Source: an uncultured Bacilli bacterium (lineage in GTDB: Bacteria; Bacillota_I; Bacilli_A; RF39; UBA660). From it: a stretch of DNA of 49,884 nt. The notes under the pieces are model-generated. The model saw only the letters and a list, made by a program, of their open reading frames with translations. It ran no database searches and had not been told where the DNA came from. The stretch covers positions 1 through 49,884 of the forward strand of contig CANQFJ010000010.1 in the NCBI GenBank assembly GCA_947598485.1, given 5' to 3'. A program made the position numbers and the translations under genes. Shown one piece after another: positions 5,222 to 37,457 of the stretch (positions are counted from its first letter, which is position 1; the number at the start of each line of letters is the position of its first letter).

Positions 5222-5230
5222 ATTATAACA
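5222..5230 (-). promoter_or_regulatory. Extended -10 promoter for the thioredoxin-like gene
   Basis: The minus strand reads TGTTATAAT, identical to the element before the ABC-F gene. It lies 16 bases before the chosen ATG, giving a very short leader. It also supports the short start, because the longer frame would begin upstream of this promoter. Confidence 0.6.
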
Positions 5231-7402: not shown

Positions 7403-8296
7403 TTAATGATGATGGTGGTGATGGGTAATTGCCTTTAGCTCACATTTTTCCTCATCACAATGATCTTTGTCATCTTCAATTTCTATTGTAACATGATTTA
7501 TATTATGTTCAAGTAGTTCTTCACGAATTTTTTTCTTAATCTGCTTAATATCTTTACTAATAGTCTTAACATGCATAGTAGCAAAATTATTCTCACCATC
7601 TATACTCCAAATATGGATATGATGAACTTCATCAACAAACGGAATTTCACACAAATGATTTTTTATATCCTCAACTTCAATACCATGAGGAACTTTTTCT
7701 AAAAATAAATCTAAAATAGTTTTAAAATTTCTAAATGAATGAATCAAGATAAATAAAGCTACTCCTAAAGACATAATAGGATCAATTATTCTAACATCCG
7801 TAAAGTTCATAAGAATTGAGCCTATTAAAACTACTATCCATCCTAGGACATCCTCTAGCATATGTAAATTAACTGATCTTTGATTTATTGAATCCCCTTC
7901 TTTTGTAAAATATGCCGCAGCAAAGTTAATAATTACTCCCACAATGGCAAATATAATCATACCATTATAATTAACTTTAACAGGATTAATAATTCTTTTA
8001 ACTGATTCATATATAACAAAACAAGATCCAATTGTTAAGATACTAGTCGTAATAAAAGCTCCTAAAATAGAATAGCGAGCATAACCATAGGTATATTTGT
8101 TATTTGGTTTATTATGTGATTTTCTTTCTAAAACATAAGATATTCCTATACTAAGGGCATCACCAAAATCATGAATAGCATCTGACATAATAGCAATACT
8201 ATGGGTAATAAAACCACCAATTATTTCAAATATCGAAAATGATATATTTAAAAGAAAAGCAATTAAGATATTTGTTTGTGTCTTATACTTTTTCAT
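7403..8296 (-). CDS. Cation diffusion facilitator (Zn-type CDF exporter) with a C-terminal six-His tail
   Basis: The start is placed at the second of two adjacent ATG codons because GGTGAT is then correctly spaced. The 297-residue product has six membrane segments and a cytoplasmic C-terminal domain. Metal-site motifs of zinc-type CDFs are present: SDAIHDFGDA (HxxxD) in span 2 and HMLEDVLGW (HxxxD) in span 5. The C-terminal domain contains HHIHIWSID, and the last residues run DHCDEEKCELKAI followed by six histidines, a plausible metal-sensing or buffering tail. It exports divalent metal by proton antiport. An unclassified structured RNA with a terminator ends 45 bases before the start and may be its leader. 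The HMA gene follows. Confidence 0.9.
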   Translation of the reverse strand: MKKYKTQTNILIAFLLNISFSIFEIIGGFITHSIAIMSDAIHDFGDALSIGISYVLERKSHNKPNNKYTYGYARYSILGAFITTSILTIGSCFVIYESVKRIINPVKVNYNGMIIFAIVGVIINFAAAYFTKEGDSINQRSVNLHMLEDVLGWIVVLIGSILMNFTDVRIIDPIMSLGVALFILIHSFRNFKTILDLFLEKVPHGIEVEDIKNHLCEIPFVDEVHHIHIWSIDGENNFATMHVKTISKDIKQIKKKIREELLEHNINHVTIEIEDDKDHCDEEKCELKAITHHHHHH

Positions 8297-8342
8297 CATA
8301 ATCACCAATTTTAATTATACCACGAATATCATTTAAGCAACA

Positions 8343-8646
8343 AAAAACAGACTGCCTATCAAACAGCCTGCTTAATGGTGGAGATAACTTGAACTACGCC
8401 CCATATTTGATAGATATAAAACGTAATTCTATCAAGATTCCACGTATGCGCATATTACTTAATAGCTTGATATAGTAATATAACTAAAGTGTCAATCATA
8501 GATACTATAGTTGAAGAACTATAATATCCACAAACCACTACTTAGCATAAAACCAAACATAAAGCAAAGGCTTTATGAAGTTGTGACTTATTCTAAAATC
8601 TCTTTCAGCTTCCATCACAACTAGTTTCTATATTACCCTACTAAGT
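8343..8646 (-). ncRNA. Unclassified structured RNA, possibly the leader of the CDF operon
   Basis: There is no coding frame of note here, but the minus strand carries a consensus promoter, about 300 bases with several strong hairpins, and a terminator. From 5' to 3' these are: an 8-bp stem at 8615-8622/8579-8586; a 7-bp hairpin at 8558-8577; a 12-bp hairpin with a GAAG/CTTC loop at 8501-8528; an 8-bp hairpin at 8407-8435; and the terminator at 8348-8370. The segment TCTCCACC near 8377-8384 could pair with GTGGA before the 8407-8435 hairpin or with TGGGG after it, a possible switch. It matches no consensus I know for tmRNA, RNase P, SRP RNA, T-box or M-box. It is either a free small RNA or a transcription-attenuating leader for the metal exporter. 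Confidence 0.6.
8348..8370 (-). terminator. Terminator ending the structured RNA upstream of the CDF gene
   Basis: CAGGCTG / CAGTCTG (one wobble pair) with a 9-base loop is followed on the minus strand by six T. It stands only 52 bases before the CDF start, the position expected for an attenuator. Confidence 0.8.
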
Positions 8647-8652
8647 AATTAT

Positions 8653-8681
8653 ATTTTAGCATCTATTATTGCAAATATCAA
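8653..8681 (-). promoter_or_regulatory. Sigma-A promoter of the structured RNA
   Basis: On the minus strand TTGATA (8676-8681) and TAAAAT (8653-8658) are separated by exactly 17 bases. A start near 8646 is expected. The flank downstream to 8682-8848 is A+T-rich with nothing else recognisable. Confidence 0.75.
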
Positions 8682-13493: not shown

Positions 13494-13510
13494 AACTCCA
13501 CAAAGGAGTT
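13494..13510 (-). terminator. Terminator of the second WXG100 pair
   Basis: AACTCC / GGAGTT with a 5-base loop starts inside the stop codon of the WXG100 gene and continues into T-rich sequence on the minus strand. Confidence 0.7.
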
Positions 13511-13793
13511 ATTTATTTTGCATTTGATCGTAGTATTCAGCTTCTTTACCTGCAGTTTCTACTTTAGATTGAACAGATTTTAAATATTGAATAAATTCTG
13601 TGAATTCACTAGATGCTTTATTCCATTCACTTTTAAAATCGTCTGCAGCAATACCAGTCCATGTTCTATCATTAATATTAGTTTGCACATTATCTATTAA
13701 ATCATTTAATATCTTTTCAATCTTTGAAGCATTTTCTGCTAAAACATTAGCTTTAGCTTTAACATAATCATATTCTATTCTTAATGTAGCCAT
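13509..13793 (-). CDS. WXG100 family T7SS protein (pair B, second gene)
   Basis: The 94-residue protein is a helical hairpin with W-T-G at the turn (NDRTWTGIAADDFKSEW), the hallmark of EsxA/EsxB-type substrates. It is clearly paralogous to the 93-residue protein at 17681-17962: both begin MAT-(Q)LR and share FKSEW/FKSAW, SVQSK/TVQSK and a Q-rich end. It follows its partner by 16 bases and is expected to form a heterodimer with it and be exported through EssC. This pair has its own promoter (14182-14210) and terminator. Confidence 0.9.
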   Translation of the reverse strand: MATLRIEYDYVKAKANVLAENASKIEKILNDLIDNVQTNINDRTWTGIAADDFKSEWNKASSEFTEFIQYLKSVQSKVETAGKEAEYYDQMQNK

Positions 13794-13809
13794 ATTATTA
13801 TCCTTTCTT

Positions 13810-14109
13810 TTAATACTTTCCTAAAATGGACCCTATTTCTTGAGCAGTTTGTCTTGCGCTATCAGCTCTATCTTCAAGCTCTCTTGAAAAAGAATTTAAA
13901 GAGTTATTTAAATCTTGTAAAGATGCTAAGCGAGCATGATATCCCTCTTTAAATGTTTGATATGAGTTTCCTTCCCAATGGGCTCCTAACTCATCAACTA
14001 TCGCTGTTGTCTCTTCAATAATTTGCAAATAATCAGCAGCTTGTTTTTTTATCATAATAGACATTTCAGTTATTGCACCAGTATTAATTCTAAATAAATC
14101 GTCTGCCAT
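13810..14109 (-). CDS. WXG100 family T7SS protein (pair B, first gene)
   Basis: The 99-residue helical-hairpin protein has W-E-G at the turn (LGAHWEGNSYQTFKEGY). It is paralogous to the 97-residue protein at 17995-18288, sharing the TFKxxYxxxLxxLxxLN pattern after the turn. GGAGGTGGAGAA precedes its start. It is the first gene of the promoter-led pair B and probably dimerises with the 94-residue partner. Confidence 0.9.
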   Translation of the reverse strand: MADDLFRINTGAITEMSIMIKKQAADYLQIIEETTAIVDELGAHWEGNSYQTFKEGYHARLASLQDLNNSLNSFSRELEDRADSARQTAQEIGSILGKY

Positions 14110-17680: not shown

Positions 17681-17962
17681 TTATTGTTGATCGAATGTAG
17701 AAGTTTCTTGAGCAGCTAAATCGATTTTTGATTGTACAGTTTTAACATGGTTTACAAAATCGTTAAATGATTCTGCACAATTATCCCAAGCTGATTTAAA
17801 TTTAGTTGCAGAAGCACCTTGCCATACACTTGAATTATTTAAATTTGAGTCCATTTCTTGAACTAAATTTTTTAAAATAGAATCAATGTCATTAGCTAAG
17901 CTTTCAACAACTTTAGCTTGAGCAGAAGCTTCATCATATTGTAATCTTAATTGAGTAGCCAT
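17681..17962 (-). CDS. WXG100 family T7SS protein (pair A, second gene)
   Basis: The 93-residue protein has W-Q-G in the turn of the helical hairpin (NSSVWQGASATKFKSAW) and ends STFDQQ. It is the paralogue of the 94-residue protein at 13509-13793. It follows its partner by 32 bases with a good SD (AGGAGG). Expected to be an EsxA-like secreted partner of the 97-residue protein. Confidence 0.92.
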   Translation of the reverse strand: MATQLRLQYDEASAQAKVVESLANDIDSILKNLVQEMDSNLNNSSVWQGASATKFKSAWDNCAESFNDFVNHVKTVQSKIDLAAQETSTFDQQ

Positions 17963-17994
17963 TATTAACCTCCTTTATTTTATTTATAAGTTTA

Positions 17995-18288
17995 TTATTC
18001 CATCTTTGAATTGATATCATTAATCATTGCTTCGCCTTCTTCGGCTGTAGCACTGATTTGTGATGACATTTCTCTTAAAACTCTATTAAGTTCTTCAAGA
18101 GCACCTAGTTTAGAATCGTAAGCAGATTTAAAAGTATCATAAGTAGGTCCGCCCCATACAGAAGATAAATTATTAACTAAATTTGTAAGTTCATCAACTT
18201 TAGAAATATATCTTGCTGCTAAGTCGCCAACTGTTCCACCTAATTCTGAAACTTTGTCAGTTGCCATATTAAATTCTGATACAGACAT
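17995..18288 (-). CDS. WXG100 family T7SS protein (pair A, first gene)
   Basis: The 97-residue helical-hairpin protein has W-G-G at the turn (LSSVWGGPTYDTFKSAY). It lies immediately after yukD (14 bases) and before the 93-residue partner, the usual Firmicute T7SS arrangement of small secreted proteins near YukD/EsaB and EssC. The pair is paralogous to 13509-14109. AGGGAGGTGAA precedes the start. Confidence 0.92.
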   Translation of the reverse strand: MSVSEFNMATDKVSELGGTVGDLAARYISKVDELTNLVNNLSSVWGGPTYDTFKSAYDSKLGALEELNRVLREMSSQISATAEEGEAMINDINSKME

Positions 18289-35369: not shown

Positions 35370-37457
35370 CTATACTTTCTTTATTCCTTTATAATTTTTC
35401 AGTAATTTCTTAGTCCCAATTTTAAAGCTAAAGGCAATTGTTACAAACCTGTCATCAACATCCGTAACAACACCTTTGCCAAAAGTAATATGATTTACTA
35501 AATCACCCTTATGATATTCTTCAGAAGATGTTCCCTCCTCATCATAAAGTAACTGCTTGTTAACTTTCTTAACATCTTCTTTTTGATCAATATCGATTAT
35601 TTCTTTTCTGATTTCACTTATAAATCTACTTGGGGGATTCATAGTTGTCTTACCATAAAGCATCCTTCTCTCAGCATTTAATAGATAAAGCCTTTCTTTG
35701 GCTCTAGTAATAGCCACATACATAAGTCTTCGTTCTTCTTCAAGCTCAGCTTCTTCATAGAGACTATTAGCATGAGGCAAAATGCTTTCCTCAAGGCCAA
35801 TGATAAATACAACTTTAAACTCTAGCCCCTTAGCACTATGAATAGTCATAAGGGTTACAGCATCCCCATCTTTAGTATACTCTGAAGCATCTGCTACTAA
35901 ACTGATTTCATCTAAGAAATCGTTGATATTAACGGAACCAGTAACCTTTTCAAAATTCTCAGTAACGGATTTAAATTCCATTAAGTTTTCTAGTCTTAAT
36001 GAACTTTCTAAAGTATTTTCTTTTTCTAGTAACTCTTTAATCTTCGTTTTTTCTAAGATAGTATCAATAAGTTCTGTTAAAGACTCGTTCTTACTATCAT
36101 TTTCAAGTTCTAAAATCAAATCTTTAAATTCTTTTTCTTTACCTGATTCAATGGCCTCGAACATTGATATATTTTCAATATCTGCGACTTTGGCAATATT
36201 TTCAATTGTCTTATCACCAATTTTTCTTTTAGGCTCATTTATTACTCTAAGAAGGGATACATCATCGTCATGATTAGCTATTAATTTTAAATAAGCGATT
36301 AAATCTTTAATCTCTTTTCTTTTATAGAAATAGTAGCTACCAAATACTTTATAAGGAATATTTTCTTTGACCATTTTATCTTCCATCGCTCTTGATTGAG
36401 CATTGGTTCGATAGAAAACAGCCATATCTTTTCTTTGATAACCTTCGTTTAAAAGATTTTTTATTTCATCTACTACCCTTGTAGTTTCCATATCATCATT
36501 ATAGGCTCTAATATATTTGATATTAACGCCTTTACCTAAATCACTATATAAATCTAAATCTTTTCTTTGACGATTATTTTTTATAACATCATTAGCAGCA
36601 TCTAGTATAACTTGCGTACTACGATAATTTTTAGGTAAAGTTACTGTTTTGCAATCAGGATAGTCCTTTTCAAAATTCAAAATATTTTGGAAATTAGCAC
36701 CCCGGAAAGCATAAATAGATTGCGATGGATCTCCAACAACAAACAAATTACGATATTTGCTAGCCAGTAGCTTAACAAGTTTATATTGTACTTCATTCGT
36801 ATCTTGATACTCATCAATTAAAATATATTTATAATGTTCTTGATATCTTTCTAATATCTCAGGATTATTTTTAAAAAGTTCTACGGGTTTTTTTAATAAA
36901 TCATCAAAGTCAACCGTATTATTTCTTTTTAATATCTTTTCATACTCATAATATACGTTGGCCGCCATTTGTTCAGGTTCTGTTAAAAAGAAACGATTTA
37001 TCTCCGATTCTGATAACATATTATTTTTAATAAAAGATATTTTATTTCGGATAAAAGCAGGGCTATATTCTTTTGGGTCTAATCCTTTATCTTTTAGAAT
37101 TTTTTTAATAATCGAGTTAACATCTTCAGTATCAATTATCGTAAAATTACGAGTCATGCCTAAAGCCTCTAAGTTTTCTTTTATGACTCTTAAACCAAAA
37201 GAGTGAAAAGTTCCCACGAAAGCATAATGAGTTCCTATTAAATTTTCTACTCTTTGTCTCATCTCGGTAGCAGCTTTATTCGTAAAAGTTATGGCTAAAA
37301 TATTACTGGATTTAACCCCTCCGGCAATTAAATTAGCAATTCTTGTCGTAAGTACTTTAGTCTTACCGGAACCTGCGCCGGCAATTACTAAACAAGGCCC
37401 TTCTTCGTGCGTCGCGGCCTCATATTGTTCTTTATTTAAGCTATCTAAAAAATTCAT
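35370..37457 (-). CDS. pcrA: UvrD/PcrA-type 3'-5' DNA helicase
   Basis: The 695-residue protein has all SF1A motifs: AGAGSGKTKV near residue 28, LAITFTNKAATEMRQRV, DEYQDTNEVQ, GDPSQSIYAFRGA, TLPKNYRS, TIHSAKGLEFKVVF and YVAITRAKERLYL. The C-terminal part ends in a Tudor-like stretch (KGDLVNHITFGKGVVTDVDDRFVTIAF). PcrA removes proteins from DNA and acts in repair and plasmid replication. GGAGGTAAC before the ATG and an extended -10 (37485-37493) support the start. Confidence 0.96.
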   Translation of the reverse strand: MNFLDSLNKEQYEAATHEEGPCLVIAGAGSGKTKVLTTRIANLIAGGVKSSNILAITFTNKAATEMRQRVENLIGTHYAFVGTFHSFGLRVIKENLEALGMTRNFTIIDTEDVNSIIKKILKDKGLDPKEYSPAFIRNKISFIKNNMLSESEINRFFLTEPEQMAANVYYEYEKILKRNNTVDFDDLLKKPVELFKNNPEILERYQEHYKYILIDEYQDTNEVQYKLVKLLASKYRNLFVVGDPSQSIYAFRGANFQNILNFEKDYPDCKTVTLPKNYRSTQVILDAANDVIKNNRQRKDLDLYSDLGKGVNIKYIRAYNDDMETTRVVDEIKNLLNEGYQRKDMAVFYRTNAQSRAMEDKMVKENIPYKVFGSYYFYKRKEIKDLIAYLKLIANHDDDVSLLRVINEPKRKIGDKTIENIAKVADIENISMFEAIESGKEKEFKDLILELENDSKNESLTELIDTILEKTKIKELLEKENTLESSLRLENLMEFKSVTENFEKVTGSVNINDFLDEISLVADASEYTKDGDAVTLMTIHSAKGLEFKVVFIIGLEESILPHANSLYEEAELEEERRLMYVAITRAKERLYLLNAERRMLYGKTTMNPPSRFISEIRKEIIDIDQKEDVKKVNKQLLYDEEGTSSEEYHKGDLVNHITFGKGVVTDVDDRFVTIAFSFKIGTKKLLKNYKGIKKV

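Follow-up and report, generated by a model that had tools for sequence, protein, structure and literature searches.

In retroviral DIS and other kissing-loop dimers, the loop of a hairpin is palindromic, and its letters can vary yet remain self-complementary. The argument for intermolecular pairing that we use below was made for OLE, with its palindromes GGCC, GAUC and AGCU, together with GOLLD (PMC12286853). New classes of large structured non-coding RNA (ncRNA) are rare, and natural RNA homodimers are rarer still. The RNA described here is encoded in the window (the whole 49,884-nt stretch of DNA that was analysed) and comes from gut bacteria with small genomes, a family that is represented here by metagenome assemblies alone and whose RNA biology is almost unexplored. 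It is best explained, with good though not full confidence, as the representative of a new family of free-standing, probably homodimeric, trans-acting structured ncRNAs of about 260-450 nt, with a fold made up of helix P1, pseudoknot A-B, a GUGG/CCAC helix and a kissing contact C-D. In total, 51 copies were examined, 36 of them in alignment A6 and 15 found later with covariance model R3.

Predicted transcription unit, fold and covariation

The preliminary description had placed an unclassified structured RNA of ~300 nt at 8343-8681. This much stands: the fold is strong, no Rfam family matches and the RNA is conserved in relatives. Of the interval itself, the signals of the RNA and of its promoter are confirmed, but the transcript is expected to start at ~8647 rather than at 8681. 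The promoter TTGATA-17-TAAAAT is present as reported on the minus strand (8681-8653) and additionally carries a TG before the -10 box. Because P1 begins 5 nt past the -10 box in 34 of the first 36 copies, the 5' end of the RNA is expected at P1 itself; re-scanning of the later copies mis-picked a few promoters, and the count from the first set is the cleaner one. At the other end, an intrinsic terminator (8373-8341, minus strand) of 13 pairs followed by a T-run ends about 40-45 nt before the start of a CDF exporter gene, a gap given as about 50 bases in the earlier description. Measured from the -10 box to the 3' end, the first 36 copies span 259-456 nt.

Promoter-like sites by themselves are not rare in shuffled sequence (4 found versus 2.9), whereas two terminator-like sites were found versus a shuffle mean of 0.1, one of them within the 5' domain of the RNA. 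The latter, a hairpin at 8577-8558 (minus strand) in the variable part of that domain, is an arm of the RNA that is kept across the genus. The folding energy of the 316-nt strand, -102.2 kcal/mol (z = -7.83), was equalled by none of 100 shuffles. Distant relatives repeat the promoter, the helices and the terminator, with compensating changes; these features are therefore not put down to chance, and we infer that the RNA is transcribed from its own promoter. The features, all on the minus strand, are as follows.

8653-8681, minus: promoter of the RNA, with -35 TTGATA (8681-8676), -10 TAAAAT (8658-8653) and a 17-nt spacer with TG
8341-8647, minus: the RNA, about 305 nt long and ending at the terminator; 5' end expected from promoter geometry
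8638-8647, minus: P1, 5' strand UACUUAGUAG (36-copy swap test; 15 later copies)
8473-8637, minus: variable 5' domain enclosed by P1, with several hairpins predicted by folding
within 8473-8637, minus: P2, GGUAAUAUAG/UUAUAUUACU, adjoining P1 (swap test)
8466-8472, minus: A strand of pseudoknot A-B, UAUCAAG (covariation)
8456-8465, minus: P1, 3' strand CUAUUAAGUA (36-copy swap test)
8445-8454, minus: palindromic hairpin UAUGCGCAUA with tetraloop GCGC, the predicted dimerisation loop (loop covariation)
8440-8443, minus: PX, 5' strand GUGG (helix 97.9% paired)
8430-8436, minus: B strand of pseudoknot A-B, CUUGAUA (covariation)
8393-8427, minus: C hairpin, with apical loop C, CUAUCAA, at 8413-8407 (covarying helices)
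8378-8381, minus: PX, 3' strand CCAC (helix 97.9% paired)
8341-8373, minus: terminator hairpin and T-run, with loop D, UUUGAUAG, at 8363-8356 (covariation with loop C)
8314-8322, minus: extended -10 element TGGTATAAT of the CDF gene, read from the sequence, downstream of the RNA terminator
7403-8299, minus: CDF cation efflux gene, a neighbour only, outside the RNA unit

The 51 copies have a single architecture in common, in which the elements follow, from 5' to 3', in the order P1, (P2), variable arms, A, the 3' strand of P1, the palindromic hairpin, GUGG, B, the C hairpin, CCAC and the terminator with loop D. Covariation supports an A-B pairing that crosses P1, a kissing contact of loop C with terminator loop D, and a GUGG/CCAC helix that closes the C hairpin. 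The pyrimidine segment TCTCCACC, to which two alternative G-rich partners had been ascribed, has a single supported one, GTGG at 8443-8440, with which it covaries in 36 copies.

Conserved structure in relatives had been set in advance as a test of the RNA, and covarying helices were found across the 51 copies. In A6 (36 copies), the 42 pairs are 95.7% paired, versus 73.1% in shuffles and 33-47% in slid controls; 37 of them show double changes, with 278 doubly changed cells versus 70 in shuffles (0/500). Taken alone, pseudoknot A-B has 10 doubly changed cells versus 1.7 shuffled, and the kissing pair C-D has 11 versus 1.0. For P1, which shows C-G to G-C exchanges, 342 of 360 positions are paired over the 36 copies, versus 313 in swaps (maximum 328; 0/1000). 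Double changes occur at 14/14 pairs of the C hairpin helix, and P2 beats its swaps (0/300) but is absent from some copies. The 15 later copies keep P1, with 9-10 of its 10 pairs, and most of them visibly keep C-D, CUGUC/GACAG having turned into CUGAC/GUCAG; GACUA/UAGUC and UGACU/AGUCA are further changed forms. The length statistic for C-D is a lower bound, as a simple automatic hairpin finder missed or mis-picked loop C in several copies. An A-B helix of 6-10 bp is found in nearly all 51 copies, the picks for L293 and L298 being doubtful.

The nested helices were part of the search models, whereas P1, A-B and C-D were outside them, so that the alignments were not fitted to these three. The shuffle statistics ignore shared ancestry; ancestry alone is nevertheless an unlikely cause of the covariation, because pair types vary between genera. 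Comparative evidence shows the helices and both long-range pairings, A-B and C-D.

Distribution and the neighbouring CDF gene

With BLAST, three species of the genus gave close copies, and two other genera gave fragments. Covariance models of 6 sequences (R1, the 3' domain), 22 sequences (R2) and 36 sequences (R3) extended the set: R1 matched 19 of 291 family genomes, R2 matched 31 of 386 family genomes in 18 of 150 genera, and R3 added further, more distant copies. These tallies are lower bounds, the large searches having scored few candidates per genome with a first-look filter that limits sensitivity, and the true presence is perhaps wider for this reason. Covariance-model searches of class and phylum genome samples gave no copies outside the family, and phages, plasmids and viral records gave no blastn match to the RNA. 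Matches of a 14-nt pattern in viral contigs were set aside, the pattern being too loose; the single viral-contig match of a strict pattern lies inside an apparent tape-measure protein gene and has no model match. In these searches, all copies fall in one family of small AT-rich gut Bacilli. The distribution of the RNA is patchy, some species of the same genus having yielded no copy; an essential role is not easily squared with this, although the search is limited in sensitivity.

In two genomes (G361 and G405) the RNA occurs in tandem, at 5227 and 5619 of L256 and at 7459 and 7916 of L260; both copies of a tandem have the same palindrome, and each has a promoter and a terminator of its own. 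The two copies in genome G001 are divergent, lie at separate loci and differ in their palindromes, GAUC and GUAC. One copy (L111, in G094) lies between tRNA arrays, the only clear case of a setting that is also known for ROOL and GOLLD.

The gap of about 40-45 nt between terminator and CDF start, and an RNA-CDF order common to two species of the genus, would suit the metal-responsive riboswitch or attenuator leader that the preliminary description had proposed. Against this, an extended -10 site, TGGTATAAT, belongs to the CDF gene itself; the -35/-10 promoter scan did not report it, and L002 and L003 have TGCTATAAT at the equivalent position. Furthermore, 79 of 80 CDF loci fetched with flanks from other genomes lack the RNA, and the one that has it (L013) is the same locus in a sister species. 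In sister species G009 an HMA gene follows the RNA and no CDF gene lies in between, and the CDF orthologue of sister species G003 lacks an RNA match. The relatives of the RNA in other genera adjoin unrelated genes (rpsL/rpsG, a yvcK-like gene, tRNAs and others), and outside the genus no recurrent neighbour gene was found. Neither a conserved position upstream of metal genes nor an alternative pairing that would place the terminator under control in a shared transcript was found; one pairing pattern is supported, with none to open the terminator. The leader hypothesis is already largely refuted, and we give it next to no credence. Of the two layouts envisaged earlier, the free small RNA stands and the attenuator falls. 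The independence of the RNA from its neighbouring gene is shown by comparative evidence.

Elsewhere in the window, at 13509-14109 and 17681-18288 (minus strand), there are pairs of proteins of ~95 aa, candidate members of the WXG100 (type VII secretion) family that they resemble. They lie beside large genes and are syntenic in two sister species.

The palindromic tetraloop

In 32 of 36 copies the tetraloop is exactly palindromic, versus 6% expected from composition. Eight palindromic forms occur in the 36 copies and ten over all 51 (GCGC, ACGU, GUAC, AUAU and others); in the related copies L270 and L306 the palindrome is imperfect and of odd length. When loop positions 1-4 and 2-3 are treated as pairs, they are 98.6% complementary, versus 62% in shuffles, with 33 doubly changed cells versus 8.7 (0/500). 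Neighbouring bases of a loop are unable to pair in a single chain, so this covariation points to pairing between two molecules. The pattern on which the OLE case was built, a symmetric kissing loop that covaries between palindromes, is found here. A self-complementary 10-mer (G-U allowed) is present in 48 of 51 copies versus 21-24% of control windows in this AT-rich sequence, and since palindromic 10-mers are fairly common in such sequence, the case for a dimer rests on the tetraloop covariation.

The same free-standing RNA might be monomeric, with the palindrome put to some other use, for example as a site at the DNA level, as a hairpin that a protein binds or for a short-lived contact. The raiA motif is comparable in size and monomeric in cryo-EM (PMC12286853), palindromes are not rare in AT-rich sequence, and the dimer is a prediction from sequence. 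A loop that takes ten exact palindromes and stays self-complementary is no fixed protein or DNA motif, however, and the other variable positions of the alignment show nothing of the kind, which makes a monomer unlikely in our judgement. Most probably, the RNA homodimerises via the palindromic tetraloop or via the 10-16 nt palindrome around it. The contact may be either a 4-bp kiss or a longer duplex, and C-D may form within or between chains.

In the proposed scheme for the homodimer, transcription would start from a sigma-A-type promoter that belongs to the RNA and stop at the RNA's own terminator, and the RNA would fold with P1 at its very 5' end, pseudoknot A-B across P1 and the GUGG/CCAC helix. 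Loop C would kiss terminator loop D, which would make the terminator part of the tertiary fold and seal the 3' end of the RNA into it. Two copies would then pair through the self-complementary loop, and the dimer would serve as a trans-acting scaffold, either RNA or RNP, the role supposed for OLE, ROOL and GOLLD. We are evenly divided on a more specific version, in which the RNA would be a compact RNA-only homodimer class, smaller than OLE, ROOL and GOLLD, with a built-in terminator hairpin and lineage-specific palindromes that keep the dimers self-specific; the differing palindromes of the G001 paralogues, GAUC and GUAC, are cited for the last point. The variation of the palindrome offers a direct genetic test of dimerisation, and its modest size makes the RNA accessible to chemical probing, mass photometry and structural studies.

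Relation to known RNA families

In size and complexity the RNA is comparable to known families (tmRNA, 6S, RNase P, raiA, OLE, ROOL and GOLLD), of one of which it might be a divergent member, and TTCAA...CTCCACCA near the 3' end superficially recalls the end of tmRNA. The T-arm pairing of that candidate does not form, and we judged the likeness a coincidence; the pair of tmRNA hallmarks, a covariance-model match and a tag ORF, was not found at the RNA. In keeping with the preliminary view that this is no known housekeeping RNA, the tmRNA (RF00023, G000:C18), 6S RNA (RF00013, G000:C1) and class B RNase P RNA (RF00011, G000:C23) of the same genome are located on other contigs. In the window, no Rfam family matches the RNA at gathering or permissive thresholds, and 20 homologous loci searched at permissive E-values gave only nearby tRNAs and sub-threshold noise. 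This includes OLE, ROOL and GOLLD, without a covariance-model match in the window or the 20 loci, and the raiA motif (RF03072), without one in the window or the homologous loci and in 0 of 60 relatives, in a search that had no positive control. Membership of a known family is thus very improbable.

The sole Rfam match of the window above its gathering score is RF03531 (n00280), at 35665-35765 (minus strand), an sRNA of C. difficile that lies inside a helicase gene; the match is possibly conserved helicase coding sequence and not a separate RNA.

The RNA family is new by every library tested, though it may already be among the thousands of candidates of a metagenome survey such as PMC8040213. 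In general type it is an orphan structured RNA that may form homo-oligomers. Like OLE, it is a free-standing structured ncRNA of Bacillota. OLE forms homodimers through a symmetric kissing loop, in which one palindromic tetranucleotide is exchanged for another (PMC12286853), and a dimer of this sort is predicted here. OLE is about 600 nt long and has known protein partners, whereas the present RNA measures 260-450 nt, lacks a conserved neighbour and has a kissing contact that involves the terminator loop. ROOL and GOLLD are likewise pseudoknotted orphan RNAs, whose RNA-only homo-oligomers form by kissing loops (PMC12286853), but they far exceed it in length and occur with phages and tRNA islands, whereas no phage, plasmid or viral record was found for the RNA described here. 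The raiA motif, an orphan structured RNA from Firmicutes of about 205 nt, shares the compact fold but is monomeric in cryo-EM (PMC12286853). Finally, retroviral DIS is an element of viral genomes, whereas the palindrome reported here lies within a cellular ncRNA.
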